Below, one piece after another: positions 4,277 through 26,556 of a stretch of DNA of 27,027 bases. Under the pieces are notes generated by a model. That model had not been told where the DNA came from. It was given only the letters and a program-made list of their open reading frames with translations, and ran no database searches. Numbering within the stretch: the stretch's first letter is position 1; the number at the start of each line of letters is the position of its first letter. Source of the DNA: a virus; IMG/VR virus record IMGVR_UViG_3300035698_028364, positions 1-27,027 of that record. One strand, 5' to 3'. Made by a program: the position numbers and the translations under genes.

Positions 4277-4857
4277 TGATAATTCCAAAAAGAAGTAAAC
4301 TTAAAAAGAAGTGCAAAGGAGGGATACTGATAAAGAAGCATAGCGATGGTGCTAAGATAAGGTTGTCAGAAGCCCTTGATGCTGCCCGTAAAGATGAGGG
4401 TATTCATGGTGAGGGGAAGGTATATGGGTCTCTGATGAAGTTCAAACATCCTGTATCCAACGCTGATATAAACTTCAATGAATATAAGGACTTCCTACAA
4501 ACCGTAAAGTGGAATGATGCTGATAACCAGGATCTATACCGTATGTACAGTACTAAATTAGGTGGTAAGCCTGATAGCCAAACCATAGGTAAATATCTAA
4601 ATGATTCTTATGATACAAATAAGAACATTATCCTGGAGGGCATTAGATCAAGCGGAAATGATTATGTAGATGTAAATTCAACCATAGGTGCTGCGGGTAC
4701 CAATAACAGGATGGGTCAACTGGAGGACATGGCCAATAGCCGTAAATCTGTTATAGCACGTGGGAATATCATGAACAACCAGAATAACTATCTCGCACAA
4801 GATCCTAAAAGTGACTTGGCAGAGTTTGAAAGCAAGTTGATAAAACGAAAGAAGTAA
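4276..4857 (+). CDS. Hypothetical protein, 193 aa, possible virion protein
   Basis: The N-terminus (first about 22 residues) is strongly basic and contains KGGILIKKHSDG, similar to the C-terminus of the 81-aa protein at 3693-3938. The middle part is soluble and mixed alpha/beta, the region around residues 120-170 is rich in Asn and Gly, and the C-terminus is again basic. It is coupled on both sides by TAATG overlaps (4274-4278 and 4855-4859). A virion or head-associated role is plausible from the operon, which also contains the endolysin, but I recognise no family. Confidence 0.65.
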   Translation: MIIPKRSKLKKKCKGGILIKKHSDGAKIRLSEALDAARKDEGIHGEGKVYGSLMKFKHPVSNADINFNEYKDFLQTVKWNDADNQDLYRMYSTKLGGKPDSQTIGKYLNDSYDTNKNIILEGIRSSGNDYVDVNSTIGAAGTNNRMGQLEDMANSRKSVIARGNIMNNQNNYLAQDPKSDLAEFESKLIKRKK

Positions 4858-5108
4858 TGAACAAACAAAATAGCTATATTGGAGAGGGTGATCCTGTTAC
4901 ATTAAGGCAAGATATTCCTAACAAACCTATAATGGTTGTAGAGAAAGTCGAAAGGGCAAAGCGTACAGATAAGGATGTGACCAAAGATACAACTCATCCT
5001 AAAAGCTCTCTGATGGGATTCCGTTGTATATGGTTCACCACAGATGGTACTCTGCAGTCACATAGATTCAGTTCAAAGGATTTGATCAGGGTGGACGATG
5101 TCGATTAG
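4857..5108 (+). CDS. DUF2158/YodC-like small protein, 83 aa
   Basis: The layout matches the small SH3-like barrel family called DUF2158 (YodC-like): an opening GDPVTLRQD strand, a V-E-K-V strand, a central CIWFTTDG turn, and a closing strand with the pattern SSKDLIRVDD. The usual length is 60-80 residues, as here. The biochemical role of the family is unknown. It overlaps the previous stop (TAATG) and its own 3' end overlaps the next gene by 11 bp. Confidence 0.6.
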   Translation: MNKQNSYIGEGDPVTLRQDIPNKPIMVVEKVERAKRTDKDVTKDTTHPKSSLMGFRCIWFTTDGTLQSHRFSSKDLIRVDDVD

Positions 5109-8980: not shown

Positions 8981-8988
8981 AATAAAAG

Positions 8989-9064
8989 CGGTCCCTATGG
9001 AATTCGAATCTATCTGAATTCCTGCGTGACAGGCAGGAGGCCACACCAAGCAGCCCAAGAGACC
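8989..9064 (-). tRNA. tRNA-Asp(GUC)
   Basis: This is an intact cloverleaf. The acceptor GGTCTCT pairs with AGGGACC (one G-T pair), the anticodon arm CCTGC, loop CTGTCAC, GCAGG is perfect (anticodon GUC), the discriminator is G, and the T arm has one mismatch. Confidence 0.85.
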
Positions 9065-9067
9065 ATG

Positions 9068-9141
9068 TAGCGGGGGCCGGATTCGAACCAGCGACCTTCG
9101 GGTTATGAGCCCGGTGTCCTAAGCCCCTAGACCACCCCGCT
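9068..9141 (-). tRNA. tRNA-Met(CAU)
   Basis: The acceptor AGCGGGG pairs perfectly with CCCCGCT, the D stem GTCT pairs with GGAC, and the T stem GCTGG pairs with CCGGC (one G-T). The anticodon loop is CTCATAA. Three G-C pairs next to the loop (GGG/CCC) resemble initiator tRNA, but the paired A1-U72 and the Y11-R24 pair are elongator-like. An Ile2 (lysidine) identity cannot be excluded from the gene alone. Confidence 0.88.
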
Positions 9142-9150
9142 ATTTATTAT

Positions 9151-9226
9151 GTTGTCATGGTAGGATTTGAACCTACGGCCAGCACCTTATCAGGGTGATA
9201 CTCTGCCAGGCTGAGTTACACGACAA
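9151..9226 (-). tRNA. tRNA-Ile(GAU)
   Basis: The acceptor TTGTCGT pairs with ATGACAA (one G-T pair). The anticodon loop is CTGATAA (anticodon GAU), the D stem is CTC with GAG, and the T loop is TTCAAAT. It looks intact. Confidence 0.85.
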
Positions 9227-9268
9227 TGTATTATGTCTTAAATATTGCCAACATTTGTGACAAACCTG

Positions 9269-9340
9269 CGCTCCCTGAAGGACTTGAACCTCCGGCCTTA
9301 TGCTTAACAGGCATTTGCTCTACCACTGAGCTAAAGGAGC
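9269..9340 (-). tRNA. tRNA-Asn(GUU)
   Basis: The acceptor GCTCCTT pairs with AGGGAGC (one G-T pair), the discriminator is G, the anticodon loop is CTGTTAA (anticodon GUU), the D arm is GCTC with GAGC, and the T loop is TTCAAGT. The outermost anticodon-stem pair is mismatched. Confidence 0.85.
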
Positions 9341-9343
9341 ATG

Positions 9344-9417
9344 AGCCAAAGGCAGGATTTGAACCCGCGACAATCTCATTACAAGTGAGGCGTTCTGGCC
9401 AACTGAACTACTCTGGC
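9344..9417 (-). tRNA. tRNA-Thr(UGU)
   Basis: The acceptor GCCAGAG pairs with CTTTGGC (one G-T pair). The anticodon arm is CCTCA, loop CTTGTAA, TGAGA (anticodon UGU), and the T loop is TTCAAAT. It lies 3 bp from tRNA-Asn, consistent with a common precursor. Confidence 0.87.
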
Positions 9418-9473
9418 TTAGTACTATTTTGTGATAAGTATCGCTTTTCAATACTTTTCGCTAATTTTTACTG

Positions 9474-9545
9474 TAATGGGTATGGGAGTCGAACCCCTGT
9501 ATTTGGGCTGAAAACCCAACGTCATGGCCACCAGACGGATCCACC
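9474..9545 (-). tRNA. tRNA-Glu(UUC)
   Basis: The anticodon arm is perfect (TTGGG, loop TTTTCAG, CCCAA; anticodon UUC), the D stem GTC/GAC is typical of Glu, and the T loop is TTCGACT. The acceptor stem is weak (GGTGGAT against ACCCATT, with two G-T pairs and one mismatch), so function is likely but not certain. It is the first tRNA of the leftward cluster, 56 bp from tRNA-Thr. Confidence 0.72.
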
Positions 9546-9793: not shown

Positions 9794-9826
9794 TTGTATA
9801 TTATTTTTGTTAACACTAATGTGCAA
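9794..9826 (+). promoter_or_regulatory. Phage promoter motif before the terminase gene
   Basis: TTGTATATT (9794-9802), TTGTTAA (9807-9813) and GTGCAA (9821-9826) occur with the same spacing as the other copies. The last block is one base off the consensus. The motif runs into the terminase ATG at 9826, so either the message is leaderless or translation begins at a later Met. Confidence 0.7.
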
Positions 9827-12096
9827 TGTCTGATGAATCAATAAAACCCGATAAGAAACGGAAAGACGGGTATAGATTAATACAAAAAAACAGGGAGTGG
9901 CATAAGAAAACAGGGATACCTACGCTTGAGTCCGTCATGGAAATGAACAAGCATCAGTGGGGATTATCTGGGTACAAGCCCTTATCTGAAAGATTTAATC
10001 CGGATTGGTTTAGATCTGCCGCACTTGATCAGAGCCGTAACGGAGGTAAATATACCAAAGCTCCATATGGCTCTAAAGCGTATAGAGAATACTGGGATGC
10101 CCAATATGATCGATGTAAGAAAGGGTACAGGACCCATGGATTCTTTTGTCCTGGAGACCTATACTTCTTTCTCAATTTTTATGTACTTCCAGTTCCTGTA
10201 GAGGACCCTATCACAGGAGAAATAGATAGATTAATGGGTCACCCCTTATTCTGGGAAGTACACTACTTGTTTGCGCACTATGTTGAATGGGGACGTAAAA
10301 ATAAAAGTGACGGGGTATGTCTAAAACCCCGTGGTGTGGGATGGTCTGAATATGTGGCCAGTATGGGCTGTAATATGTACACCACTCGTAAGGGTTCTGT
10401 GACCTCCTTCCTGGCATCTAATGAAGATTATCTACTTAAGGATGGTATCATGTCCAAAGCATGGCGCTGCCTGGACTATCTGAACGAAGAGACCCAGCGA
10501 GGTATGAAGAAACTTCGTCAAAAGCAGGATGCCAAATTACATAAGAGAGCCTCCACAGTTAACGGAGAAGGTAACGAGATTGGATGGAAGTCCGAGGTCA
10601 TAGGAAAGATTGTAGACAGGCCAGATAAAGTAAGGGGTAACCGTACCAATTTGCTGGTATTTGAAGAGGCAGGGTCTTTCAAAAACTTCCTTAAATCTTT
10701 AGCGACCAGTCTGCCATTAGTGGATATTCAAGGAAAACGATTTGGCTATAGGATAGCTTTCGGAACTGGTGGAGATGAGTCCTCTAAAGGAGAAGCCATA
10801 GAAGGGTTGATGACATGTTTTTACAAACCGAAATCAAACCAGATGCTCCCATTCAGGCATAACTTCGTAGAAGGATTTGTAGAATCTGTAGAGACCGGGT
10901 TCTTCTTCCCTGCCTACTGTTGTTACATGGATTTCATGAATCATCAGGGAGTCACGGATTATGAAAAAGCTTATAATTACTTTCAAGGAGAGCGCAAGAT
11001 GCGGGAAGATGAAGGGGATATAGATGGGCTTAGGCACTATAAAGCAGAATATCCATTCTTCCCAGAAGAAGCATTCGCTAAATCCGGTACCAATATATTC
11101 AATACAATAAAGGCTGCCAACCAGATGGTCAAGCTAAAATCTGATCCAAATTTCCCAAAACCAATGCGTGGGGAACTTCAGTGGATTTATAAAAAAGGGA
11201 CAAGTAAAATAGTAGGGGTTGATTTCATAGAAACAGTGAACGGAAAATTACTGCTCATGGAAAAACCTGAACGTGATGCTATGGACTTTAAGTATAAGAA
11301 CTTATATGTTGGTGGCATTGACTCAATTGATTTTGGATCTGGTAATTCCCTTGTTGGTAAAGATGGGTCAAAATTCTGTGCGGTTATAAAGAAGAGGTTC
11401 CTACACGCCGAGAAAACGGGGAATATATACGTAGCCCTGTATTTAGATCGTCCTTCGGATGAGCGAGAAGCTTACGATATGGCAATGAAAATGTCCGTAT
11501 ACTTCAATTGTAAATTCAATGTAGAGCGTACACGTAAGGAAGTCATCTCACATTTTAGGCACCATGGGTTGCTTAGATATATGTCCAAACAACCTAGTAT
11601 TATAGGAAGCAATATAAACCCAAATGCTACCAAGACAGATAATGCATATGGTACACCTATTGATGGAACTGGAAAGATAATCGTGCATTATCTAAATAAG
11701 ATCAAGGACTATGTACAGGACTATAGTGAATTGATCTATTTCGAGGATATGATCAAGGAGATAATAAACTATGCATACGAAAGAAAACGAGCATTTGATA
11801 TAATAGTAGCAATGGGAATGGCCGAGATGTTAGATGAAGATATGGATGCTAGAGGTACAACGGCAAATAGCGAGAAGCCGGTAACAACCCATATGAAACT
11901 GATTGGGTACTACATGGATCCTTCGACCGGGTATAAGAAATATGGCCCTATTCCGGACGATGTATTAACTACTCGTAAGACGGCACAGCAGATGTATAGC
12001 GATCTTGGTATGGAGCATGAAGTAGATGAATCGCCATTGAATTGGATTGATACAAGTGATGAAGCCCATGGAAAGCTTGTTTTTGAATTACAATAA
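9826..12096 (+). CDS. terL: Terminase large subunit (packaging ATPase and nuclease)
   Basis: This is the motor ATPase that cuts concatemeric phage DNA and pumps it through the portal. The Walker A-like motif LKPRGVGWS lies at residues 166-174 (Lys167 and Arg169 with the Gly-Val-Gly loop) and the Walker B LLVFEEAG at 276-283, with the catalytic Glu pair 280/281. The RNase H-like nuclease domain begins with GGIDSIDFG at about 496-504 (Asp499, Asp502). At 756 residues it is longer than most terminases but fits crAss-like phages. The ATG at 9826 overlaps the promoter motif, so a start at Met38 or Met40 should be considered. The gene is followed by a tandem GroES gene with its own promoter, and is separated from the portal by the plasmid-type replicon. 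Confidence 0.93.
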   Translation: MSDESIKPDKKRKDGYRLIQKNREWHKKTGIPTLESVMEMNKHQWGLSGYKPLSERFNPDWFRSAALDQSRNGGKYTKAPYGSKAYREYWDAQYDRCKKGYRTHGFFCPGDLYFFLNFYVLPVPVEDPITGEIDRLMGHPLFWEVHYLFAHYVEWGRKNKSDGVCLKPRGVGWSEYVASMGCNMYTTRKGSVTSFLASNEDYLLKDGIMSKAWRCLDYLNEETQRGMKKLRQKQDAKLHKRASTVNGEGNEIGWKSEVIGKIVDRPDKVRGNRTNLLVFEEAGSFKNFLKSLATSLPLVDIQGKRFGYRIAFGTGGDESSKGEAIEGLMTCFYKPKSNQMLPFRHNFVEGFVESVETGFFFPAYCCYMDFMNHQGVTDYEKAYNYFQGERKMREDEGDIDGLRHYKAEYPFFPEEAFAKSGTNIFNTIKAANQMVKLKSDPNFPKPMRGELQWIYKKGTSKIVGVDFIETVNGKLLLMEKPERDAMDFKYKNLYVGGIDSIDFGSGNSLVGKDGSKFCAVIKKRFLHAEKTGNIYVALYLDRPSDEREAYDMAMKMSVYFNCKFNVERTRKEVISHFRHHGLLRYMSKQPSIIGSNINPNATKTDNAYGTPIDGTGKIIVHYLNKIKDYVQDYSELIYFEDMIKEIINYAYERKRAFDIIVAMGMAEMLDEDMDARGTTANSEKPVTTHMKLIGYYMDPSTGYKKYGPIPDDVLTTRKTAQQMYSDLGMEHEVDESPLNWIDTSDEAHGKLVFELQ

Positions 12097-12129
12097 TTGT
12101 ATATTGCCCTTGTTAAGACACACTTGCAA
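12097..12129 (+). promoter_or_regulatory. Phage promoter motif before the GroES-like gene
   Basis: This is a full 33-bp match: TTGTATATT, 4 bp, TTGTTAA, 7 bp, TTGCAA. It starts at the base after the terminase stop codon and ends 8 bp before the start of the GroES-like gene. Confidence 0.78.
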
Positions 12130-12137
12130 AATGAAAT

Positions 12138-12779
12138 ATGTATAACAAACCTGAAGAAGTTAGTAAAATCAAACCAGTGCGCGATCTGATATCTGTTCGT
12201 GTACTCACGCCTGCAGATATAAAAACTCCATCCGGAATTATAGGTGTAAAACAGACAACAACAAAATGGCATGGTGATGAAATCTATGAAGGAGAAGTCC
12301 TGGAATTAAGTGATAAGGCCAAAAAGAACAGCATACTTAAACCGGGGGATATTATCCTATTCCATAGATTGCATGATGGCTATATACCTACCAGTGGGGA
12401 CCAGTACATCAAAATGGTGCCATGGTCTATGGCACTTGCCAAGAAGTTAAATGGCTTGGAGTTACTGAATGTTGAGAAATTACAACCACTTACGGAACGA
12501 ATTATTGTAGAACAAGATACATTACAGGATACAAAAAATGGCATCTATGTAGGCAATTCAAGAACGACCAGTATCTACGATTCAGATACAATGGGAGGTA
12601 GAGTGATTGGAATTGCAGATGATGTTGATGAAGATATTGTAGTTGGAGATCGTGTACGATGGGAAAACCATGCAGGTACCCAAATAGATGTACAGACCTT
12701 TGATGCATCTGGAAAGGCTGTTAAGAAGGATTATAGACTGATTATTATTCATGATGTTCTGGCAAAGTTACTGAGTTAA
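12138..12779 (+). CDS. Tandem GroES-like (Cpn10) co-chaperonin, two domains in one chain
   Basis: Two successive GroES-like units are visible. Unit 1 (about residues 12-103) opens with PVRDLISVRVL, has the mobile-loop pattern TPSGIIGVKQ, then EGEVLEL, KPGDIILF and a closing strand before WSMALAKK. Unit 2 (about residues 116-213) repeats this order: PLTERIIVEQ, mobile loop NGIYVG, GGRVIGIA, VVGDRVRW, LIIIHDVLAKL. GroES is about 97 residues, so each half is one full domain. GroES caps GroEL and helps proteins fold; phages such as T4 encode a replacement (gp31) for capsid folding. Both halves keep a Gly plus hydrophobic residues where GroES contacts GroEL. Two-domain Cpn10 is known from chloroplasts (Cpn20). 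It has its own phage promoter, beside the terminase gene. Assignment is from pattern only. Confidence 0.8.
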   Translation: MYNKPEEVSKIKPVRDLISVRVLTPADIKTPSGIIGVKQTTTKWHGDEIYEGEVLELSDKAKKNSILKPGDIILFHRLHDGYIPTSGDQYIKMVPWSMALAKKLNGLELLNVEKLQPLTERIIVEQDTLQDTKNGIYVGNSRTTSIYDSDTMGGRVIGIADDVDEDIVVGDRVRWENHAGTQIDVQTFDASGKAVKKDYRLIIIHDVLAKLLS

Positions 12780-13279: not shown

Positions 13280-13513
13280 TTATAATGGGTCAGGTCCCGT
13301 AAGATCGCCCATATCCATTCCTTCCAACCATTCCAGGTATCCCAATTTTGTTTTAAACATCCTTTTAGAGGTATCCATATCTGGAAACAAGTGTCGTTCC
13401 ATAGTATTTACTTCGTTGATCAATCTAACAAGATCCGGATCTAGTGTAGTAATAATAGACCCTGGCATTGATCTCTGTAAGTTCTTTAAATTAACATAAA
13501 AATAGTATCCCAT
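13280..13513 (-). CDS. Hypothetical protein coupled to rep, 77 aa
   Basis: This is a 77-residue acidic helical protein with a short hydrophobic N-terminal strand and an acidic, Gly/Pro-rich tail. It contains no recognised motif. Its ATG overlaps the stop codon of the replication initiator gene (TAATG on the minus strand), so it is translated with rep. Small genes in this position in plasmids can be copy-number or accessory replication factors, but nothing in its sequence shows that. It ends the leftward replicon next to the decayed genes at 12804-13271. Confidence 0.65.
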   Translation of the reverse strand: MGYYFYVNLKNLQRSMPGSIITTLDPDLVRLINEVNTMERHLFPDMDTSKRMFKTKLGYLEWLEGMDMGDLTGPDPL

Positions 13514-14529
13514 TATGATCGTTCAAACGGTATCTTTACTTTCCTGGTTACTGAATAATATTCCTTTTTTTGATATGCCTGCTCAATATGATGAACGAAC
13601 CACTCTTGCTCATTCCTCAATCTTGTAACACGCTCCCTCTCCCATGGCTTGGTCATATGATCAAAGATAATAATGTTCAATACATGTAGGGGTATCTTTG
13701 TCTTATAACCATTTAATTTTTTCTCAGGTATTTTAGGAAATTTCCCAAGATATAATGACATGTTTCTAAATGCCTCTGTATTATGGAATTGTTTATTAAT
13801 ATCTGAGCTATTAGTACTCTTGTCCGGCTCCCTGAAAGGTATCTCAACAGTATCTCCGTCGCGGTCCATGGATACTCTTACGGAATGTACAGACCTCCCC
13901 TTTTTAAGTGGTTTGAACCTAGGTTTAAAATCTGTAGTATCCCATATGTCTTCAAACGGCTCTACAAGAATCCTTCTTTTAATATGACTCCAGGTATAGT
14001 TTGGTTTTAAGAATATCTCCCTGAGCTCGTCCAGTGTGTATACCTGCGATTTATTATACCTTGTAGATAAGTTTGACAAGATAGATAACCAGCGTTTACT
14101 GGCCTTATAACATAATTTTAATCTCTGGTCAGAATCTATGTTTGTGAATCCCCCATTTAAAGCTTTGACAGCATAAAGGTAATGAGTGGCGAATGGTGTA
14201 ATTTGGGCCAGGTACTTTCGTTTATTCGGATAGTGCTTCCATGTAACAAGGAAACTCGTCTTACCATAGTGGAATTCTTTATCCTCTTTGGATACTCCGT
14301 TGATGAACTTTATTTCACTTACCCTCAATTCGTCCATAGCCTTATCCACCCGCTTGTAATCTGTAAGGCCCTTGATCGTATTTATCTCATCATGACCTAT
14401 ATCAAAAGTGCAGACATCGTCAGGTAATGTATCTGTGTTGAAATCAAAGTTCTCGAACAACTTTACCATCTTTGGGTCGAAGGGCTTAAACTTACGCTGG
14501 ATCAGGTTCATGATATCCATGGCCAACAT
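13513..14529 (-). CDS. rep: Plasmid-type replication initiator, Rep_3 (RepE/RepB) family
   Basis: The second half carries the winged-helix signature of Rep_3 initiators: a helix with SKRWLSILSNLSTRY (about residues 144-158), YTLDELREIF (164-173), a helix HIKRRILVEPFEDIW (182-196), and the wing RFKPLKKGRSVHSVRVS (204-220). These match, element by element, the iteron-binding winged helix of RepE, Pi and RepB type proteins. Such proteins bind repeated iterons, open the origin and load the replisome; as dimers they repress their own gene. The length of 338 residues is within the family range, with an unrecognised extra C-terminal part of about 110 residues. The iteron array lies 485-615 bp upstream of its start and three more iteron copies lie 120-285 bp upstream. 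ATG at 14529; a second in-frame ATG three codons later is also possible. Confidence 0.8.
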   Translation of the reverse strand: MLAMDIMNLIQRKFKPFDPKMVKLFENFDFNTDTLPDDVCTFDIGHDEINTIKGLTDYKRVDKAMDELRVSEIKFINGVSKEDKEFHYGKTSFLVTWKHYPNKRKYLAQITPFATHYLYAVKALNGGFTNIDSDQRLKLCYKASKRWLSILSNLSTRYNKSQVYTLDELREIFLKPNYTWSHIKRRILVEPFEDIWDTTDFKPRFKPLKKGRSVHSVRVSMDRDGDTVEIPFREPDKSTNSSDINKQFHNTEAFRNMSLYLGKFPKIPEKKLNGYKTKIPLHVLNIIIFDHMTKPWERERVTRLRNEQEWFVHHIEQAYQKKEYYSVTRKVKIPFERS

Positions 14530-14648
14530 TTAAAAATCATAGGATGATTCAAGTACAAATTTATTGGACTCTACAATTCTTAATGCTTTGGAGCTTATGA
14601 GTAAATTCGTCATGTACTAATTTTTGACAATTATAAACATTGATTAAA

Positions 14649-14664
14649 ATACAATTCGTGTGTT
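14649..14664 (-). repeat. Iteron, inverted copy near rep
   Basis: Read leftward this is AACACACGAATTGTAT, matching 14 of 16 positions of the consensus AACTCACGKATTGTAT. It lies 120 bp upstream of the rep start. Confidence 0.55.
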
Positions 14665-14735
14665 ATGGATATTTATGAGTAAAGTTTGTCATTAATGCGC
14701 CCCACAATCTTAAAACGCACAAAAAGTTCCAAATA

Positions 14736-14751
14736 ATATAATACGTGAGTT
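14736..14751 (-). repeat. Iteron, inverted copy
   Basis: Read leftward this is AACTCACGTATTATAT, 15 of 16 positions matching the consensus. With the direct copy at 14798-14813 it forms an inverted pair separated by 46 bp, a layout that in Rep_3 plasmids often marks the autoregulatory operator. Confidence 0.65.
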
Positions 14752-14797
14752 TTAATTAATATTATATAAATCACTGTATATCAATTCATTATACCTT

Positions 14798-14813
14798 AAC
14801 TCACGTATTGTAT
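14798..14813 (+). repeat. Iteron, isolated direct copy
   Basis: AACTCACGTATTGTAT, a perfect consensus copy, lies 200 bp away from the main array and pairs in inverted orientation with 14736-14751. Confidence 0.75.
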
Positions 14814-15013
14814 GGCGAGTGCTCTGTGGGTTACCATCCGGTTTATGAGTCTTTGTACATAATATCCAACAACAGAGATTGTAAATTTTGTTAATTTTCC
14901 TTTTAAGCTTTTTTTTAATTAAATTCATATATCTCCCTTAACGATCTTTATAACAATAATTAACTATTAACAGTATGGTCAAAGTACTTAAGATCAATCA
15001 GTTACACTATATT

Positions 15014-15144
15014 AACTTACGGATCGTATCAATTATGTCACGTATTGTATTTATATAATCACGGATTGTATGTACTTAACTCACGGATTGTATCATACCT
15101 ACCCTAAGACTCACAGATTGTATTAAAATACTCACGTATTGTAT
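15014..15144 (+). repeat. Iteron array, six direct copies
   Basis: Sixteen-bp copies of AACTCACGKATTGTAT lie at 15014-15029, 15035-15050, 15056-15071, 15078-15093, 15108-15123 and 15129-15144. The last eight bases are nearly invariant (one copy reads GATCGTAT). Start-to-start distances are 21, 21, 22, 30 and 21 bp, that is two or three helical turns, so all sites face the same side of DNA. This is typical of iterons for Rep_3 initiators. They could also, or instead, be the centromere bound by the RHH partition proteins whose gene ends at the last copy. Confidence 0.85.
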
Positions 15145-15428
15145 TATAAGCTTGATCCTGATGTAGACTTTTCAAGCTTGTGGAGCATCTCCTCAAGAAT
15201 TGATTCCATCAATTTACCATGATTCTTTACCTTGAATCTCTTACAGAGGGTCTTATATCCATCGACTACTTCCCGACGAATACGCATGGAGGTACTATCG
15301 ACTTTACACTCTACCAATTGCTGTTCTTGGAATAGGTCCAATTTGAACTGTTCTGTGGTTACATTTAGTATTTCTTGTGGGTCTATATTTCTAATGTGCC
15401 CGCGTAGGGATAATTTTTTATTCTTCAT
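15144..15428 (-). CDS. Ribbon-helix-helix protein 2, partition adaptor candidate
   Basis: The C-terminal half (about residues 46-88) follows the ribbon-helix-helix pattern: a short strand STSMRIRREVV, a helix with DGYKTLCKRFKV, a turn, and a helix GKLMESILEEMLHKL. RHH dimers insert a beta ribbon in the major groove and often bind repeated sites cooperatively. The same region of the neighbouring 126-aa protein lines up with it (DSxxxRIxRxx, then two helices), so the two are paralogues. It overlaps that gene by 11 bp and its stop codon touches the last iteron. By position it is the distal gene of a ParA-RHH-RHH operon and may be a centromere-binding adaptor or repressor. Confidence 0.7.
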   Translation of the reverse strand: MKNKKLSLRGHIRNIDPQEILNVTTEQFKLDLFQEQQLVECKVDSTSMRIRREVVDGYKTLCKRFKVKNHGKLMESILEEMLHKLEKSTSGSSL

Positions 15429-15798
15429 GAGGGTATGGATCTAGTTTTATGAATTCTCTAAGTATGGCATTTATAATTCTTCCCGTATCTTTTTTCCGTA
15501 AGTTGAACGCCAGCTCCTCGAACACGAGCCAGATATCTCGATCTATTCTTACGGCATTGCTATCTTTTCCACGGACATGTTGATACTTATTTGCTATCTT
15601 ACGTACCTGGTCCTCATAGTTTAGTGCCTTCACTTCTGCCATTGTTAAGTCATGCACATCTTCTTCAAGGTCTGACGTTTCAGTTTCCTTTACCGGTTTA
15701 GTATCTTTCGGTGTATCGATCTGTACTTCACGTTTCCGCTTGGATGCCATCTGACTGAATTCTCCAAGATCGTCACTAGGTTTTTTCTTTGGTGTCAT
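15418..15798 (-). CDS. Ribbon-helix-helix protein 1 with disordered N-terminus, ParB-like adaptor candidate
   Basis: The first about 50 residues are Lys, Glu, Thr and Ser rich and look disordered, which is common in adaptors that stimulate ParA ATPases. The C-terminal part (about residues 78-118) has the RHH pattern: strand NAVRIDRDIW, helix FEELAFNLRKK, turn, helix GRIINAILREFIKL. It resembles the TraB/DUF3408-type partner found beside ParA-like proteins in Bacteroidota mobile elements, although I cannot prove membership. Its start overlaps the parA stop (ATGA at 15795-15798), so the two are translationally coupled. The expected job is to bind the centromere and recruit ParA. Confidence 0.72.
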   Translation of the reverse strand: MTPKKKPSDDLGEFSQMASKRKREVQIDTPKDTKPVKETETSDLEEDVHDLTMAEVKALNYEDQVRKIANKYQHVRGKDSNAVRIDRDIWLVFEELAFNLRKKDTGRIINAILREFIKLDPYPHEE

Positions 15799-16451
15799 GA
15801 TTTTATTATTTTATAGAACTCATTAAATAATTTGATCACTTCACTATTGTGTAATGGCTTAACAGTACTCATGTCACGATCATAGGCAATCCAATGATGT
15901 AATCCATTTGATAACATGTTCAATCGATCCTTGTATACTTCCCGAATGTTCTGATACTCACCAGTATTATCTATCTTATTCACAATTCCATAAGCCCTAC
16001 CTGTAAAATACTGACTACTGTATGACTTTAACTCTGCAATAAATTTCTCTTGTCCAGATATATCCCTCCTACGTGCAACAATTGGTATAAAGATAAAATC
16101 AGATCTCTTGACATAAGACATTACCCTGAGAAACTCATCACTTCCAGGGGTATCAAAAATTATGTAGTCATATTTGTTATGATACTGACCAATGAATTTA
16201 GAGAATTGCTTTTCCTGGTACGTTCCATGGGCAATGATTGGAAATGGTTCGTAACCGGAATCCTGTAACTCGGTCCCATATACCTGAAGGTCCCGTGTAC
16301 GTATCTCATAAAGGGATTCTGAAAAGTCTGCATCGATGACCAGAATATTCTTATCTGTTTTATATTCCAACATAGTGCTCAACAATCCTACCAATGTTGT
16401 CTTCCCTCCCCCACCCTTTGAGGACATGAATGATATATACTTTGTTTGCAT
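15795..16451 (-). CDS. parA: ParA-family partition ATPase
   Basis: The deviant Walker A box SSKGGGGKTT (Lys12 as signature lysine, Lys17 and Thr18 binding nucleotide), the A' box VIDADFSES (about 38-46) and the Walker B box YIIFDTPG (about 96-103) identify a ParA/MinD-type ATPase. At 218 residues without an N-terminal DNA-binding domain it is of the small (type Ib-like) class, which normally pairs with RHH adaptors, as found here. It moves plasmid copies to daughter cells by ATP-dependent binding to the nucleoid. I start it at the ATG at 16449-16451; a longer frame would need a TTG start three codons earlier. It leads a three-gene leftward operon with both RHH genes. Confidence 0.88.
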   Translation of the reverse strand: MQTKYISFMSSKGGGGKTTLVGLLSTMLEYKTDKNILVIDADFSESLYEIRTRDLQVYGTELQDSGYEPFPIIAHGTYQEKQFSKFIGQYHNKYDYIIFDTPGSDEFLRVMSYVKRSDFIFIPIVARRRDISGQEKFIAELKSYSSQYFTGRAYGIVNKIDNTGEYQNIREVYKDRLNMLSNGLHHWIAYDRDMSTVKPLHNSEVIKLFNEFYKIIKS

Positions 16452-16619
16452 GGATATCAATTAAAATGTAGTAATATTTCTATGGATAGCAATTAATCAA
16501 TTATGTTACAAATATGCATATCTAGTAAATACGAATCAAGTAATCTAAATATTAATTATATTTATTTGCATATACAAATGATAATAGAGTACTTAATATA
16601 TGCATTTAGATATACCTCT

Positions 16620-17322: not shown

Positions 17323-19599
17323 ATGAAAAATTATTATAACGTAAAGATCAGTGATTACGAAGTGTCGGAATCTGGTAAATCAGACCCTAAATACCTCTCT
17401 GCCTATATGGACGACATGATTACCGACCTGGTAGTGGATCAAAAGGGGAAAAGGCGGGAGAAGATGCTGAAGATGAGGAATCTTTATGATGGTCTACGCG
17501 ATAGGGATGAGTTCTCTTACCTTGAGGACAACTACGGTATAGGAAGTCCACATGATATAAAATTTATTCCTATAATCAGGAATAGGATAGACGTACTTAT
17601 CGGCCTGATGAGCGCTGCTACTTTTGACTTCCAGTGTACAGTAATGGATCAGGATAGCCTTTTCCTGATGATGCAAGAGAAGAGTTTCGCTGTACTCCAA
17701 AAAGTATATGATATGGTGCAGGACTACGCCGCAAGTATACAGAAGCAATCATCGATTACTGACGAAGAAACTCAACAACCACATATTCCTCAAAATATTA
17801 AAAAATTCATAGAGACTGCAAAGAGGGATGTAGATCGTGAATGGAGGAGTGTTTTTGTAAGTGCTGCCAATAAGCTGATCAAGTACTATCTACACGATAT
17901 AGATATAGACATGCACCAGAAGCGCAGGTTACTTTTTGAAGACCTGTTAGTGGTAGGAGAGATGTCTTATAGAGTATTATCAAAACATCATGGTGAAGTA
18001 CCTCAAATCGAGGTATTGTTACCTGAGAATTGTTACTACGAACTTCCACGGGACAAGAAATACCTCAAGCAAACTGAGCGATTTGTTTATGTCAAGTACA
18101 TGACCAAAGCAGAGATACTTTCCGATTGGGGACATCTTATGGAAAAAACAGATAGAGAGACCCTTTTTGAACTTCCTACAAAATCCTATACACATACATT
18201 GCGTACTGCCAGGGAAGAGGATATGGTTGGTACAGATAAAGAGACTCATCGCTATCTCAATGAAAAGCAAATACATAAAGTCTATTTGTGTGAGTGGATA
18301 GCTAACAATGAATACGATATAGACCCTGATGTAGAAAAGAGCAGGATGCGAGTGAGTGGTCGTAACAAAGTATTCAAGAAAGCCTATAGAAAAGATCGAT
18401 ACGAAGGAGTAAGGATTGAAGATGATATTTACCTGGAAATGGGTAAAAGTGAATTTGTACGTAGGACATCAAAAGATCCTAAGAATGCAGAACTGTCATT
18501 CAATGGAATTAGATTTTCAGATAGGGGAGGGGAACCGTATTCATTGATCTGGAAATGTAAGGATATCCAGGACATGCATGACATCATGATATTTCACCGG
18601 GATGTGTTAACAGCCAATGCTGGAGTGGACGGATCCAGGGTCAATTTACAGGCAATGCCCGATTTTCTGGGAGCTAGTATGGAAGAGCGGCTCATGAAAT
18701 ACATAGGGTATAGAAAACAGGGAGTCGAACTTATCGACACGACAAAGGAAGAGGCCAGGAGTTTTCAGCACTATGGTGATTTTAAAGGAGGACTAGATGG
18801 GAATACCATCGTTGCTATAAATTCCATTATTAGTATGCTGGATGAGGAAGCCTCTAAGATTACCGGTGTCACTCACCAAATGTTGGGAAATATAATGCAG
18901 CGAGAAGCTGTATCCAATGTAAAAACCGGACTACAGCAAACCTCATTGGTCACAAAGAATTTATTTGATCATAACGATACGATTACCAAACATATCCTGA
19001 ATGATATATTGTGCATGACACAAATGTCCTTTAGAGATACCAATGGGTTTACCGGATCTTTTGTACAGCGTACCGGACAGCAAATTTTTCACCTTATACC
19101 TAGAGACTTTTGTTTTTCTGATTATAATATTCACATCACCAGTACAAGTGAGGAATATACCAAGGTACAATTGATCCGTGGGTTAGCCTCTGAATTGATT
19201 AATGCCCAGGCTATACGTCCACACGTACTTGTAAAATTAATCGCCACAGACTCTCTACATGAGATGATAGAATTCCTAGAAGAGGAGTTCAAAATCACGG
19301 AAGGTCAAAACCAGCAATTGGCACAAGTACAGCAGCAATTGGATGAGCTTACAAAAGAGAATAAAGAATTAAAATCTAAAGCTAAGAAAGCGGAGGAACA
19401 AAATGTAGCTATTGAGAATGCCAGATTGAAACTTGATCAGTGGAGCAAGGGTAAAGAGCTGGAAATAAAGGAATACTCCGAATACAATAAGAAGGACTTT
19501 AATGATAAGAATATAGAGCTCAAAAAAGAGATCGTAAAACTTGAAGCCAGGGAATTGGAAATCGGTAATGGTCAACAACGAGAAGTTAAAAATTTCTAA
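17323..19599 (+). CDS. Portal protein
   Basis: The portal is the dodecameric ring at the capsid vertex through which DNA enters and leaves. The 758-residue product has the layout of large crAss-like portals: an N-terminal charged helical region with the YLEDNYGIGSP segment (about residues 66-76), a region with IPIIRNRIDVLIGLM (about 84-98), a long alpha/beta body, a region of stem-type helices around residues 500-560, and a Gln/Lys/Glu-rich coiled coil at about 660-745 near the C-terminus. There is no enzymatic motif. It starts a rightward structural operon in which the next three genes follow with TAATG-type overlaps or a 2-bp gap. Recognition rests on overall character and position, so it is strong but not proven. 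Confidence 0.82.
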   Translation: MKNYYNVKISDYEVSESGKSDPKYLSAYMDDMITDLVVDQKGKRREKMLKMRNLYDGLRDRDEFSYLEDNYGIGSPHDIKFIPIIRNRIDVLIGLMSAATFDFQCTVMDQDSLFLMMQEKSFAVLQKVYDMVQDYAASIQKQSSITDEETQQPHIPQNIKKFIETAKRDVDREWRSVFVSAANKLIKYYLHDIDIDMHQKRRLLFEDLLVVGEMSYRVLSKHHGEVPQIEVLLPENCYYELPRDKKYLKQTERFVYVKYMTKAEILSDWGHLMEKTDRETLFELPTKSYTHTLRTAREEDMVGTDKETHRYLNEKQIHKVYLCEWIANNEYDIDPDVEKSRMRVSGRNKVFKKAYRKDRYEGVRIEDDIYLEMGKSEFVRRTSKDPKNAELSFNGIRFSDRGGEPYSLIWKCKDIQDMHDIMIFHRDVLTANAGVDGSRVNLQAMPDFLGASMEERLMKYIGYRKQGVELIDTTKEEARSFQHYGDFKGGLDGNTIVAINSIISMLDEEASKITGVTHQMLGNIMQREAVSNVKTGLQQTSLVTKNLFDHNDTITKHILNDILCMTQMSFRDTNGFTGSFVQRTGQQIFHLIPRDFCFSDYNIHITSTSEEYTKVQLIRGLASELINAQAIRPHVLVKLIATDSLHEMIEFLEEEFKITEGQNQQLAQVQQQLDELTKENKELKSKAKKAEEQNVAIENARLKLDQWSKGKELEIKEYSEYNKKDFNDKNIELKKEIVKLEARELEIGNGQQREVKNF

Positions 19600-20330: not shown

Positions 20331-21178
20331 TGGACGAGTTGACAAGAATCGCTTTTGAAGAGAACCTGGTTAAGGAATTCGGATCTCTGGATGGTTCGAT
20401 CTATTCCAGGAAACGGTTTATTGCTTATATCAAAAAGCTACTCGAAGCAGGGGGTATCGGTAAGGAATACCAATTCAAGGCAGGTGTGGACCTAGAGGTT
20501 GATGTAAAAACTATTGGAGAGAATATCTATGAAGTCACTTACCTTTATAACAAAGGAGATGGCCCTACTGCTACTGTAACCAATTTCGTAGCGGAGTGGG
20601 GACACGAATTTGCTGAAGGAGAATTGAATATACATGTAGATGTGACCAGGAAGGATTACCCTCTGAATTCAGTATTGTGGGATAGTGGAGAAGTTTTTCC
20701 AGAGATTAGTGAGAACTTATCCTCATTAGGTGATATAGGTAAAAATGGTCACTATCTTGCGGATACTACTAACGCCAATTTCATATCTGGGACAGACACT
20801 GTAGTTGCACAAGGAGGAACTTATAATGATACAAATGGAAAGAATGGTATCTTAAAATCTACTATTACCAGACAAACAAGACATTTTTATGGTAGCATAG
20901 CCTCCCCATCAAGTTCTATTGTTTTAACAAGCCTATCATCTGTATTGGGAAGTTTGCCATCCGACTTAGAAATAGATCATGGTAAAACCCCACATAACTG
21001 TATCATCATCACTACTGGGGATATAGAGGTATATGCCAGTGGTCTCATGGTAGGAATGACCAAATTAGAGAATGTTACCCTCAATCCAAACACCAGCTTC
21101 CCTGAATTCTCTAAAGATTATAAAGTATATATTTCAACCGGTACCTCTACAGGAACCTTTACATTCCAGATTAATTAA
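20330..21178 (+). CDS. Structural protein candidate, 282 aa, tail-related
   Basis: The N-terminal part (about residues 1-40) is helical. Residues 45-115 have alternating strands that resemble an immunoglobulin-like or beta-sandwich domain. The C-terminal 130 residues are Ser, Thr and Gly rich with beta character, ending with a repeat of STGTSTGTFTFQ type. Composition and position before the giant fibre gene suggest a tail or fibre-attachment protein. It shares TAATG overlaps with both neighbours. No family is recognised. Confidence 0.65.
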   Translation: MDELTRIAFEENLVKEFGSLDGSIYSRKRFIAYIKKLLEAGGIGKEYQFKAGVDLEVDVKTIGENIYEVTYLYNKGDGPTATVTNFVAEWGHEFAEGELNIHVDVTRKDYPLNSVLWDSGEVFPEISENLSSLGDIGKNGHYLADTTNANFISGTDTVVAQGGTYNDTNGKNGILKSTITRQTRHFYGSIASPSSSIVLTSLSSVLGSLPSDLEIDHGKTPHNCIIITTGDIEVYASGLMVGMTKLENVTLNPNTSFPEFSKDYKVYISTGTSTGTFTFQIN

Positions 21179-24100
21179 TGATAACGATCGATAGTATAGC
21201 ACGAAACTTACCTTTGGTACCTTATAAAGAGGAAATCAAGATAAATTACTCAGGGGAGACATCAGGAACCATATTCGCCGAGATCCAAGGACCAAGTGGT
21301 ACATGGCACACAGCTTATATTACTTCCAGACAGTCCGGATATTTGACCTGTAGGGAATTACCTTACTCATTGGTTACTTGTGTTGTACGATTGTTACAAG
21401 GAAGTACCTATTCAAATCAGGTGAGCTATGACCCTGTACAGGTAAATAATGATGGAACACCGGTACCCTATACAGTACGAATAAACCACACCAAGAATAA
21501 CAATCCTGTAATTATCTCCAGAGAAATGCAAGGAGGTCACCACGTTTTTGACAATGTGTATGACTTCCTTTGGTTCCCTCAAACATTAATGGAGAGGGCC
21601 ATGACAGCATCTGTGAAAGGAAGTGATAGAGTGATCAGGACATATGCACTGGATGACCTCATCAGTATATCATCAATGCCCTACCCATTGTTGGACGTAG
21701 ATTTTGGTGTGGATGGATCTTTCCGTAATTACTGGGTATTACAGTCAGAATCTAAAAAAGAATTATCTGCAGCAACACTGATCGAGTATGCCCCGGATTG
21801 GCAAGGAGGTATTCCCCCTTTTTATGAAAATCCAGATGAAACCGGGTCGTTTGACCGATATGTATTTCCAATAGGAGTAGAGTGGGATGATGAGCGAGAA
21901 TTTACTGCAAATAATTGGACAAACGTACAAGAAGATAAGCATAATTGGAAACGTGTACAAGAGGCAGGACTGACCAATCCAGAAGTGAATTTTTGGTCAC
22001 GGCCTATTCCTATAAATGCCAATCAGGTAGATTGGTACCAGGAGAATAGGTTCATACGACTTTTTGAAAAGCCAAAACAGACAGGATCTGAGCACATACA
22101 TGTATATTCTTTCTATAAAGGTGAAACAAACAGGTTTGCCAACTTTGATATGCATGGAAATAACTATTATTTCTATGATCGACAGCCTGCACAGCGTGCG
22201 TGGGCAGATCTATCCACAGAAGAGAAGGAAGCATACGAGACGGAGCACGGTACAGTAGCAGACCCATTGGATGCAACTGTAGTGAAGAATATCAACAAGC
22301 TATGGATGATACTGGCCACTAAGGATATTTATGGAAATCTTAAGAGTGCCTGGTCAGCTCCTCAGTTGATCAAGGAAGGCGAAGGAGATCTGGTAAGGTA
22401 TTCCGTTTCCGGCAAGGGGGATATTAACGCTACGCGCCAGTATATCGCTGACAACAACATTCTGGATACACAAGAGATTGATGACCTGTATGAAGGCATC
22501 GGTTGGACGGATACCTATCAATATGGGGCACATAACTACATGGCCTATCGCGAATCTGCTGCAGATGAGTGGCAGGTGAGGAAGACTGCTGGAGAGCTTG
22601 GACAGTTCACCAAGGATTACTACAAACCATATCCGATTAATTATTACGACCGGATCAATAACATCCGTACTCGTGGTAACTACATACCTAATGGCATCAA
22701 TGCCCAGAATAATCCTGAAGACGAGATCGCCCAGTACAACTGGACCGATGCTCCACCGGCACCTTCGGATGTACCTATAGGATGGGAAATATACCGGGCC
22801 TCCACGGTAATGGCGCTCGATGAAACCAAGATGTTTGGAGAATGGACCATACAACTGGTTTCAGGACGATCTCCAATTTCAGACTATGTGCAGGCTTCCT
22901 ATGAGGCATTTCTGACCAAGATAGAAGGAACAGCCACACCAGGTGGTGACGAGGTGACCAGGGAATTTGATACAATCCAGTTGGATGCAAAGATGTTCAT
23001 AGAAGGTAAATCGATATATACTCTTAGTGAAGAGACTATTTACTTTGTATGGAAAAGGATATATAATTCTGGGAATCCGGACTCTACCGTTATTTACAAC
23101 AATTTTGGGAAAGTATGGAATAGTGGTACAGGAAAATATGAGAGTGATCCAGGAACCTTGGTCAGTACACCGCCTACCGGATTTTCTATATCTAACGGTG
23201 GAAGGACTTTAACAATAGATCATACAACAGTAGATTCGTCTGCTATTTTTGAACTTGGACAATATAGGGATGTAGAAGGTAATCAAGATTTTGGAGGTAC
23301 TTCTACCAATTATATAGAGTACCTTGCTGAAAAGACTATTGGTGATTATAAGGATCGCGTTGTACGTTCGGTAGTGGTTTCTGCGGAAACTCAGCAATTT
23401 GTAATAAAGGGAAATTCGGATATGACTTCCTTGGCTAAGGAGGACTTTATAGGAAAATCCAATATAAATATCAAGGCATTTGCTACAAATGTTGACTATA
23501 CTGCGGGAGGATGGTACAAATGGAACCATGTACATGATTTCAATTCGTTAAAGGAAGCTTCCAATGCAGTGGAATGGAAGGCAATAGAAGAAGCTATAAG
23601 TACCTATTGGATTAGCCTATCAGATACGGATATGAATCATAACGTACTATGGAGCGATGATGGGTTTGACCAGGAGGGTACAACATTCAACGTATATAAA
23701 TTCCAGGCACCTGCAGGAAATATTACTGTATATGATTACATAACAATCACCAGGATTAAAGAGGGTACCAATGCTGTAGATATAAAGTTGGCCCCGGAAT
23801 CCTTTGCAGTCCCGTTAAATATAGACTCAGATGCCTTTGATGGGGTTTCCAGAAAGGTATTTAAAGTTTCTGGACAAAACATCAAATTCCCAGTGTATAA
23901 TTGGGAGTTGGTAGATAAAAATGGTAATCTTATCGCAACTAAATTAGGGGCTACACAATTTGTATTTGACGCAGATAATAGTGCCAGTGTAGGGGACGAA
24001 GATTACAAACCTGCGGACATACCTACTTTTGTGGGACTTGTACCGATTACGGTACGTGTAACAGAGACTTCTTTAGGTATAAGTAGCCTATTTGAAGAAG

Positions 24101-26556
24101 GGCTAATTTCAAAAATAGCCGGAGGCGGATTGGCCATCAAAGGAGATAATGGTGAAGGGGGTATATCAGTGATCTACGACAACAATGATCTGGTACCTTC
24201 CAAGTCTGATGGTACTCCTATTGACGCAGTCAATGAGCAGACAACTATACAGGTATTCAAAGGAACAACTCCCATGCTTGGCGGTATCAGTGGGAATCAA
24301 TTTAAAATTGTTCTTCAGGCACTTCCATCAGGAGTTGTTGCAGGAGTACAGGATTACCTTACAATCAATGTGACAAGTTTGCCGGTCGCAGATAAGTCTA
24401 CAGTCTCATTCAAGATATATGAGAACAACATAAATCCAATTCAAGATGGTAGTGGTAATGATGTTGTATTTACATATAAACTCCTAAAGTCTAAGGCTGG
24501 TACAAATGGGTACACCATATCGATGACCAATGAGGCTCAGATCATAAATACAGATAGTAAGGGAGAGATCATTAAACACACGATGGATGGTAACACCAAT
24601 GCCCTGGCCAAATCCTCCATGAAGCTATATGATGGAGCTTCGGTAATAGATATTCGTGCAAACACCTTTTCCTTTAAATACAATGGTGTGACCATGCCTG
24701 TAATGCAGGAAAACTCAACTGCAAAATATTTCTGGCTACCTAATGGAGTTGGATCAAGTAATGGTGAATTATACATAAAGGCCATGAAGGCATCTTCTGA
24801 TTTTTATGTATTGAGCAATTCAACTGTCTTGCCAAGTACTCAGATAGATATAGGGGTCTCAATATCATACAATTCACAGACATTGTCCAAGTCATTGTCC
24901 CTGACCACAGTAGTAAGTCCACAGGACATGTTGAACATCAGAATCATTCCGAGAACAGCTACGGCTTTTGGACCAAATGATTTAAGTACATCGGCTTTGT
25001 ATTTTGATATAAAGTTCTACGCCGGAAATACGGAACGATCTCCATGGAGTACTCAGTATATTGTTAAAATCAACGGAGGAACTGTAACAGGAGTATATAA
25101 CAATTCTACCAAGACATTGACCATTACCAAAGCACGGGTAGTAGCTTTTCTGAATGCTGGGGTTACCTTCGAATGTGGTGGAGTGGTAGGATATATAGAT
25201 ATCCACAATACACAGGTATCAGAAGGTATTGTACAATTATTCTGCAAAGACGAAACACTTGCTTCTGGAGAAGTGAAATTGGATAATCCATTTGCCGCAC
25301 TTGGATCTCCATATGGAAGTATCATTTCGTATGATGAGGTGAGAAACGGAACCTCTACTTTTAGCAAGGCATCAAATAGCCGGACATGGTATAAAAGTTC
25401 TGTAGAAGCCATCTGGACCGTATTCCGAAATAAAAGTGATGGATACTGGTCAGCACCTATGCGTGTGGTTGGTGAGCGCGGACTTCCTGGAAAAAACCTG
25501 GTACAAGTAAAGATGTATTACAAACCTGGAACAGATACGACATCTATTCAGTGGTGGCTCAATCGCTGGGACGATCATTATCTACAGAGTACCCTGAATA
25601 CCTTCCTGGGCACATGGCAGTGGGGCTGGAGAGAGTGGAGTCAGGATATCCCAATCAGTGGAGAGATCTACTTCACAGAGAGAACATATGAATATGTTGG
25701 TTCTGGAAATGGGGACCAGGGAGCTAATAACGAATATCTTACATTTGCGGGATCATCGTGGAGTAGACCAGGACGTTTGACCGGTTTTGCAGGGATGGAA
25801 CCTGTATCTGTATTCTATAAGACATCGAGTACCACAGCGCCATCTAAACCTACGTTTACAACCTATACCGCTGCTTCAAATCATGTTCTATGGAAGATTG
25901 ATCCAAGTGCTGTAGGTGCAGGTACCTATGACTATATCTGGATCTCCATGGCTAAAAAAGACTCTAACGGGAATATAGTTGGAAGTTGGACAACCCCAGT
26001 AATATGGAAAGCGGCTAGAGGATATGATGGGTTAAAAGGGGCCAAGGGAGATAAAGGGGACAAGGGAGATAAAGGGGACAAGGGAGATAAAGGTGATATA
26101 GGAGTAATAGGATATGATGGACCAAAAGGGGATAAGGGTGATAAGGGTGATAAGGGTGATCCTGGGGTAGCTGATGGACTTCAAAAAGTCTGGATAATTC
26201 AGTCTCAAGGCACAGTTGCGTTGACGACATCCCCAAAGTCTGTTACAGCAAAAATAGATGTTGGGGATACTTTATCTAAAAGATTATTGTTTACATGTGC
26301 TACTAGATTGTATCATAATAGTAATTCATCTAGTAACGGTACGATAACTATATGGGGAAGAACTTCTGTAACAGGAACCCCAGTACCCTTATCTAATGGA
26401 GTTGGGATTGTTTGGGCAAAAACCAGTGGATTTCCAATGTCACTCACGCACATATACTTTGATACGGGATGTACATATAGGTATTTTGAAGTTGCGCTTA
26501 GCCATGATGGGGGGTCATCGTATGGGACTATATTAAAAATTGAAAGACTGAGTTAA
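21178..26556 (+). CDS. Giant tail fibre protein with collagen-like tract, 1792 aa
   Basis: This is very probably the receptor-contacting fibre. The N-terminal about 150 residues are a beta domain likely to anchor the tail. The long middle has repeated segments with a WS-P or W-T-P pattern after DxxGN turns (for example DIYGNLKSAWSAPQ, KSDGYWSAPMRV, DSNGNIVGSWTTPV), suggesting tandem beta modules. Residues about 1615-1663 are Gly-X-Y triplets dominated by GDK, a collagen-like trimeric stalk. The last about 125 residues form a beta-rich head domain, a usual place for receptor binding. The triplets are encoded by near-identical 18-bp and 9-bp DNA repeats that can change length. The start overlaps the preceding stop (TAATG). 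Confidence 0.85.
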   Translation: MITIDSIARNLPLVPYKEEIKINYSGETSGTIFAEIQGPSGTWHTAYITSRQSGYLTCRELPYSLVTCVVRLLQGSTYSNQVSYDPVQVNNDGTPVPYTVRINHTKNNNPVIISREMQGGHHVFDNVYDFLWFPQTLMERAMTASVKGSDRVIRTYALDDLISISSMPYPLLDVDFGVDGSFRNYWVLQSESKKELSAATLIEYAPDWQGGIPPFYENPDETGSFDRYVFPIGVEWDDEREFTANNWTNVQEDKHNWKRVQEAGLTNPEVNFWSRPIPINANQVDWYQENRFIRLFEKPKQTGSEHIHVYSFYKGETNRFANFDMHGNNYYFYDRQPAQRAWADLSTEEKEAYETEHGTVADPLDATVVKNINKLWMILATKDIYGNLKSAWSAPQLIKEGEGDLVRYSVSGKGDINATRQYIADNNILDTQEIDDLYEGIGWTDTYQYGAHNYMAYRESAADEWQVRKTAGELGQFTKDYYKPYPINYYDRINNIRTRGNYIPNGINAQNNPEDEIAQYNWTDAPPAPSDVPIGWEIYRASTVMALDETKMFGEWTIQLVSGRSPISDYVQASYEAFLTKIEGTATPGGDEVTREFDTIQLDAKMFIEGKSIYTLSEETIYFVWKRIYNSGNPDSTVIYNNFGKVWNSGTGKYESDPGTLVSTPPTGFSISNGGRTLTIDHTTVDSSAIFELGQYRDVEGNQDFGGTSTNYIEYLAEKTIGDYKDRVVRSVVVSAETQQFVIKGNSDMTSLAKEDFIGKSNINIKAFATNVDYTAGGWYKWNHVHDFNSLKEASNAVEWKAIEEAISTYWISLSDTDMNHNVLWSDDGFDQEGTTFNVYKFQAPAGNITVYDYITITRIKEGTNAVDIKLAPESFAVPLNIDSDAFDGVSRKVFKVSGQNIKFPVYNWELVDKNGNLIATKLGATQFVFDADNSASVGDEDYKPADIPTFVGLVPITVRVTETSLGISSLFEEGLISKIAGGGLAIKGDNGEGGISVIYDNNDLVPSKSDGTPIDAVNEQTTIQVFKGTTPMLGGISGNQFKIVLQALPSGVVAGVQDYLTINVTSLPVADKSTVSFKIYENNINPIQDGSGNDVVFTYKLLKSKAGTNGYTISMTNEAQIINTDSKGEIIKHTMDGNTNALAKSSMKLYDGASVIDIRANTFSFKYNGVTMPVMQENSTAKYFWLPNGVGSSNGELYIKAMKASSDFYVLSNSTVLPSTQIDIGVSISYNSQTLSKSLSLTTVVSPQDMLNIRIIPRTATAFGPNDLSTSALYFDIKFYAGNTERSPWSTQYIVKINGGTVTGVYNNSTKTLTITKARVVAFLNAGVTFECGGVVGYIDIHNTQVSEGIVQLFCKDETLASGEVKLDNPFAALGSPYGSIISYDEVRNGTSTFSKASNSRTWYKSSVEAIWTVFRNKSDGYWSAPMRVVGERGLPGKNLVQVKMYYKPGTDTTSIQWWLNRWDDHYLQSTLNTFLGTWQWGWREWSQDIPISGEIYFTERTYEYVGSGNGDQGANNEYLTFAGSSWSRPGRLTGFAGMEPVSVFYKTSSTTAPSKPTFTTYTAASNHVLWKIDPSAVGAGTYDYIWISMAKKDSNGNIVGSWTTPVIWKAARGYDGLKGAKGDKGDKGDKGDKGDKGDIGVIGYDGPKGDKGDKGDKGDPGVADGLQKVWIIQSQGTVALTTSPKSVTAKIDVGDTLSKRLLFTCATRLYHNSNSSSNGTITIWGRTSVTGTPVPLSNGVGIVWAKTSGFPMSLTHIYFDTGCTYRYFEVALSHDGGSSYGTILKIERLS
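26020..26166 (+). repeat. Collagen-like minisatellite inside the fibre gene
   Basis: A DNA unit of about 18 bp encoding GDKGDK recurs in tandem in the first block, and a 9-bp unit GGTGATAAG recurs in the second block. The two blocks are separated by a short non-repetitive part encoding DIGVIGYDGP. Such identity at DNA level favours slippage and recombination, so the stalk length may vary between isolates. Confidence 0.8.

Follow-up and report, generated by a model that had tools for sequence, protein, structure and literature searches.

A tandem GroES-like co-chaperonin gene in the head gene cluster of a crAss-like-affiliated phage and its relatives

Does the gene that follows the terminase gene in this phage encode two GroES domains in a single chain, and what would such a protein do for the phage? 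Work on tandem GroES proteins has been confined almost entirely to plastids, and how an even number of domains is fitted to a seven-fold ring is an argued puzzle. The window analyzed here comprises the entire virus record (27,027 bases), which is linear and therefore a fragment. The gene is an open reading frame with an ATG start and a TAA stop that encodes 213 amino acids (aa), its coordinates and length being exactly those of the preliminary description, and it adjoins the terminase gene as had been claimed there, with 41 nt between the terminase stop and its own start (Table 1). The nearest annotated relatives of the terminase were from crAss-like phages of Bacteroidota (25-36% identity), and on this sequence likeness the lineage is called crAss-like-affiliated. 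The window further contained six tRNA genes (Asp, Met, Ile, Asn, Thr, and Glu) on the minus strand just upstream of the terminase (8988-9545), the ORFs listed across this cluster being by-products, and a 1792-aa tail-fiber-like protein (21178-26556) with GDKGDKG repeats of collagen type toward the C end. Apparent intein-like or homing-endonuclease interruptions with LAGLIDADG-type text were seen in the open frames of the terminase genes of relatives, at L105 (3-2489) and L002 (8001-12230).

Table 1. Coordinates of the features of the window considered in the text.
Feature	Coordinates	Strand	Evidence or remark
Tandem (two-domain) GroES/Cpn10-like co-chaperonin gene	12138..12779	+	213 aa; Pfam Cpn10, AF2 model, Foldseek
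N-terminal GroES domain, residues 1-111	12138..12470	+	PHROG_3188 E 3e-5; Pfam Cpn10 E 0.011 (below cut-off); VIA-align
C-terminal GroES domain, residues 112-213	12471..12776	+	Pfam Cpn10 E 7.3e-7 (above curated cut-off); PHROG_3188 E 3.8e-7; full-length Cpn23 match
Predicted mobile loop, domain 1, residues 26-46	12213..12275	+	pLDDT below 50; motif SGIIG
Predicted mobile loop, domain 2, residues 130-147	12525..12578	+	pLDDT below 50; motif NGIYV
Candidate promoter motif GTTAA-N7-TTGCA	12112..12128	+	Exact match upstream of the co-chaperonin gene
Terminase large subunit (crAss-like PHROG_6681)	9826..12096	+	E 2.3e-68
Minus-strand genes including a ParA-like ATPase (15795-16460)	13280..16460	-	Split the double GroES gene from the portal gene
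Portal protein (PHROG_6547)	17323..19599	+	E 7.4e-47
Short conserved marker gene	4857..5108	+	Orthologues in L003, L006, L106, L108, L109, L111, and L116

The 213-aa protein is two Cpn10/GroES domains in tandem in one chain. It falls in the Cpn10/GroES superfamily by its match to the Pfam profile PF00166 (Cpn10), which reached E 2.3e-10 over the whole protein with two stretches matched. When the halves were scored alone, Pfam was strong only for the C half, the N half obtaining 16.2 bits and staying below the cut-off of 21.1 bits, whereas PHROG_3188 (co-chaperonin GroES) matched each of them. A family profile built from the related double proteins only, with the window protein left out, scored the full protein at 52.2 bits, the N half at 25.1, and the C half at 18.2, compared to a best score of 10.3 bits among 2000 shuffled sequences, and the profiles of the N and C halves were themselves mutually homologous (hhalign 97.2%, E 2.9e-11). 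Each chain thus carries two GroES domains head to tail as in the Cpn20 type, and the earlier proposal of GroES-type halves in a single chain agreed with the Pfam, PHROG, family profile, and structure matches alike. The profile ADH_N (PF08240) also matched three of nine family members scanned (best E 4.8e-4) and alcohol dehydrogenase chains appeared lower down in the Foldseek and VIA-align fold lists, as might be expected if the protein were no co-chaperonin but some unrelated beta-barrel, or a GroES-like domain from a zinc alcohol dehydrogenase. However, Cpn10 matched all nine members and did so more strongly than ADH_N, the protein has no Rossmann domain, the whole-length matches were to co-chaperonins only, and the loop motifs are conserved in the relatives, which makes such an origin of the matches hardly credible.

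The AF2 model used for the fold searches, with 21 related sequences as input, had a mean pLDDT of 69.8 and a pTM of 0.68, and an earlier model with homologues covering the N half only (pLDDT 48) was left out of these searches. Besides residues 1-3, the only long stretches of pLDDT below 50 were 26-46 and 130-147, and these two coincide with the predicted mobile loops (Table 1). Both domains have a flexible loop, modeled as disordered, with a glycine-hydrophobic GroEL-binding motif at residues 32-36 in the N half and 134-138 in the C half, in line with the mobile loop that had been proposed for each half. The top two Foldseek matches in the PDB were Cpn20 (7ekq_R; 214 columns, TM 0.61/0.66) and Cpn23 (7ekq_Q; 230 columns), with all single-domain GroES proteins ranked below them. 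VIA-align placed model residues 3-211 on Cpn23 (Z 13.2, 178 residues, rmsd 3.9 A), in a list that includes Cpn23 without Cpn20 and whose lack of Cpn20 says nothing about that protein, and aligned the N half (residues ~5-105) to GroES chains with Z of 9-11. When the family profile was compared with PDB sequences, Cpn20 was the best match (7.5e-9, two stretches) and came first again with more members included. A GroES beta-barrel was found in each domain; the C half had the poorer model (block pLDDT 42-87) and an uncertain alignment over its last 30 residues, and its fold rests mainly on the full-length Cpn20/Cpn23 matches together with the Pfam match. For the structure prediction put forward earlier as a check, the whole chain was modeled; it superposed full length on Cpn20/Cpn23 with loops predicted in both halves, and the Cpn20 layout invoked there gave the best full-length structure and profile match. 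In this middling-confidence model the inter-strand segments span about 8 (N half) and 6 (C half) residues, with a short helix at 59-64, and from this spacing neither half appears to have room for the GroES roof hairpin, so that the protein, like gp31, would form a more open lid.

The origin of the best structural matches in 7ekq, a chloroplast ClpP complex with a Cpn11/20/23 cap, could also suggest a modulator that occupies or alters the host chaperonin or another seven-fold ring (e.g., ClpP) and does not fold a client. This entry, however, holds the only solved tandem co-chaperonins, so the match is uninformative on ClpP, and the gene lies among late head genes and not among early takeover genes; a modulator is accordingly rated as quite improbable.

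No match to the 213-aa protein was obtained by tblastn in phages at E 0.01, with chance-level ones at E 10, and pattern scans for it in viral and genome contigs found nothing. The relatives were reached by anchoring on the terminase and portal and then on the double relatives themselves, which came up only after portal anchoring followed by searches with relatives. The sole match of the genome-contig scan with the double relatives was an ordinary bacterial GroES from Lederbergia, and no host was found. The double proteins form a group (group 2) of the window and 16 further IMG/VR records with one copy each (~195-209 aa), including near-identical records and amounting to about a dozen distinct sequences. 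PHROG_3188 matched each half separately within one frame in L110 (G052), G049, and G061. The claim that phage GroES analogues are single-domain was thereby contradicted, with the double gene present in at least 16 related records and co-chaperonins of ~200 aa known in Cellulophaga phages.

The order terminase - double GroES - portal, with the portal directly following, was conserved in all eight group 2 loci whose gene order was examined. The window has this order too, but with a minus-strand insert before the portal, and the split of the double GroES gene from the portal gene by this ParA-like block was seen only in the window phage. A further 99 loci (group 1) encode only one GroES domain, which in nearly all cases follows an extension (median of 74 residues), and the gene is located two to four genes upstream of the terminase. 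The group 1 gene lies just upstream of the orthologue of the short conserved marker gene, which is not so in group 2 or the window. Group 1 proteins (e.g., L048:7062-7661) have a longer loop region and were unannotated in the GenBank records examined. As no locus with both the single and the double type was found among the loci compared and their positions differ, the double gene appears to substitute for the single one from another position. A "putative chaperonin" of crAss phage cr109_1 [NC_055892 (L004), 100-450] gave a weak match to the group 1 GroES profile (E 8.6e-5). On this match, a GroES-like gene upstream of the terminase may be widespread in Crassvirales.

Within group 2, pairwise dN/dS was 0.09-0.34 over the full length and 0.06-0.21 with the halves taken apart, and the low values of each half indicated purifying selection on both. 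A small domain tree (90 aa, low support) clustered the N half of the window protein with other N halves, which makes it probable that the duplication preceded the divergence within group 2, and placed its C half with low-resolution GroES branches. The glycine-hydrophobic loop motif was identified at both sites in most family members. In group 2, L111 excepted, the N-domain loop mostly has a hydrophobic third motif residue and the C-domain loop a D or N; L111 lacks a recognizable N loop motif. In the window protein this third residue is G in the N loop and V in the C loop. The D or N in the C-domain loops and the N loop of L111 without the motif mean that not every loop need bind GroEL, and the residue pattern suggests that the two loops may bind it unequally. 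The degenerate third position of these C-domain loops in the relatives and the N-loop motif missing from L111 would, along with the fixed position between terminase and portal, also fit a GroES-fold protein that has been recruited into the head or portal vertex, as a scaffold, connector, or plug, and has ceased to act with GroEL. This is regarded as unlikely, since the motif is retained at both sites in most members and, as a weak argument, since the portal and other structural proteins of Cellulophaga phage phi18:3 are supported by MS/MS while its ~200-aa co-chaperonin is assigned by similarity only.

The preliminary description had also given the gene its own late-type promoter. The recurrent motif upstream of the gene (Table 1) had further exact copies at 6887, 17254, and 26630 on the plus strand and at 3453-3437 on the minus strand, and a copy with one mismatch at 9809, upstream of the terminase. 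The sites lie in intergenic gaps ahead of genes. The window contained eight sites with up to one mismatch, a number reached in none of 100 shuffles, for a motif derived partly from those same sites (the exact copy at 26630 was not used in the derivation). It was absent from all relatives checked, and in 10 of 12 relatives a TTTTAATATTAT-like AT-rich motif with up to three mismatches was found ~28-47 nt upstream in the terminase-side gap of the double gene (best sum of 18 compared to at least 25 in 30 shuffles). A separate promoter for the double gene is plausible in the window and in the relatives; the recurrent upstream motif stands, but "late promoter" is a candidate label only, the motif being partly self-derived. 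The motif ACTTRCAAAW, at first taken for a promoter, was rejected as its frequency was at chance level, and scans for sigma-70 promoters were likewise at chance level.

The conserved domains and loops, the purifying selection, and the location among head genes best support a phage co-chaperonin of two GroES domains fused head to tail that lids host GroEL, and this role is considered probable. The double protein would be made together with the head genes, and its chains would form a ring of seven positions, either among themselves or as three chains with one single-domain GroES. The mobile loops would bind host GroEL, and the ring would lid the GroEL cavity during the folding of one or more phage head proteins, in the way that T4 gp31 serves gp23. 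A Cpn60 gene was found in none of 20 related records, four of them >150 kb, though the records may be incomplete, so that the partner should be the host GroEL. By analogy with T4, the major head protein is a candidate client, in keeping with the capsid protein proposed in the preliminary description; that of the relative L107 has 470 aa, about the size of gp23, for which gp31 helps, and no major capsid gene was recognized in the 27-kb window.

The symmetry mismatch between a two-domain chain and the sevenfold ring, which the preliminary description had said must be solved, is real in principle, but published work on Cpn20 and linked GroES shows that a seven-fold ring accepts 6 or 8 domains, and linked constructs with six to eight of them are functional on GroEL (PMC5780408). 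Possible solutions for the phage protein are six domains, eight domains of which one stays idle, or a ring of three double chains and a single GroES. The last has a parallel in 7ekq, whose seven domains come from two Cpn20 chains and one chain each of Cpn11 and Cpn23. A self-standing tandem co-chaperonin family with diverged loops, mixed strong and weak contacts, and a lid dedicated to phage head proteins is proposed more tentatively and is doubtful at present; its mixed-contact ring might, for example, follow 3x2+1=7 with a host or phage single-domain GroES.

Such a family would show that phages, too, have arrived at the tandem GroES layout. The findings also suggest that a co-chaperonin gene, single or double in form, is common beside the terminase and portal genes of large Bacteroidota phages, which points to a folding need in head assembly. 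With its short genes and a likely bacterial partner, the phage tandem family would offer a simple test system for the symmetry puzzle.

Among known co-chaperonins, two head-to-tail GroES domains with a loop each also occur in chloroplast Cpn20/Cpn21/Cpn23 (Chlamydomonas and Arabidopsis) and in Plasmodium apicoplast Cpn20. These tandem proteins work as homo-oligomers or with single-domain partners (PMC5780408). In contrast to Cpn20/Cpn23, the phage protein is encoded in a head gene cluster, has 17-18% identity to them, and appears to have a shorter or missing roof segment in each domain. No evidence was found for common descent of the tandem layout in phages and the plant and apicomplexan Cpn20 group, the domain tree containing no plastid sequence, and the phage protein is Cpn20-like, not a Cpn20. 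T4 gp31 and the PHROG_3188 analogues are likewise phage-encoded with a GroES fold and a loop, and the N half of the modeled protein aligned to gp31 with Z 9.7. The single-domain gp31, the model phage co-chaperonin, has loops of 22 residues compared to 16, no roof, and a larger cage, and is needed for the 56-kDa gp23 (PMC6318259). The roof hairpin missing in gp31 would, judging by sequence length, also be lacking in the 213-aa protein. gp31 forms a plain homoheptamer of one-domain chains, whereas the 213-aa protein has two domains per chain and is therefore not of the gp31 type.

The sister-clade single-GroES protein (L048:7062-7661) comes from related phages and the same neighborhood, with a domain homologous to both halves, but it has one GroES domain behind a ~75-aa extension and its gene lies upstream of the terminase. 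A partial precedent is PHROG_13932, the long (~200-aa) co-chaperonin GroES proteins of Cellulophaga phages phi18:3 and phi38:1. The third match to the model in BFVD was the 200-aa "Chaperonin cpn10" of phi18:3, with 232 columns across both halves. As in the window family, the C half of PHROG_13932 proteins matches Cpn10 and the gene lies beside the terminase and portal genes, gp096 of phi18:3 (~200 aa) two genes before them and gp089 of phi38:1 (194 aa) directly before them. The N half of PHROG_13932, on the other hand, is GroES-like by fold only, its gene is upstream of the terminase, and each of the two phages encodes a single-domain Cpn10 elsewhere as well. Neither the 213-aa protein nor its eight relatives matched PHROG_13932 at E of 0.1 or below, and comparison of the two family profiles showed no detectable sequence relation (hhalign 1.3%). 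The two cpn10 genes each of phi18:3 (NC_021794; L194 and L201) and phi38:1 (NC_021796; L203 and L204) include single-domain proteins of 84 and 91 aa, respectively, whose pairing with the ~200-aa protein parallels chloroplast Cpn10/Cpn20. Cpn10 is a listed core gene of Pervagoviridae (PMC8776804), and GroEL or GroES genes occur in some phage DNA polymerase neighborhoods (PMC11348598). No description of a tandem or two-domain phage GroES was found in open-licence papers. With the Cellulophaga proteins as partial database precedents, the double proteins described here are a phage co-chaperonin family with the Cpn20 tandem layout in the head gene cluster.
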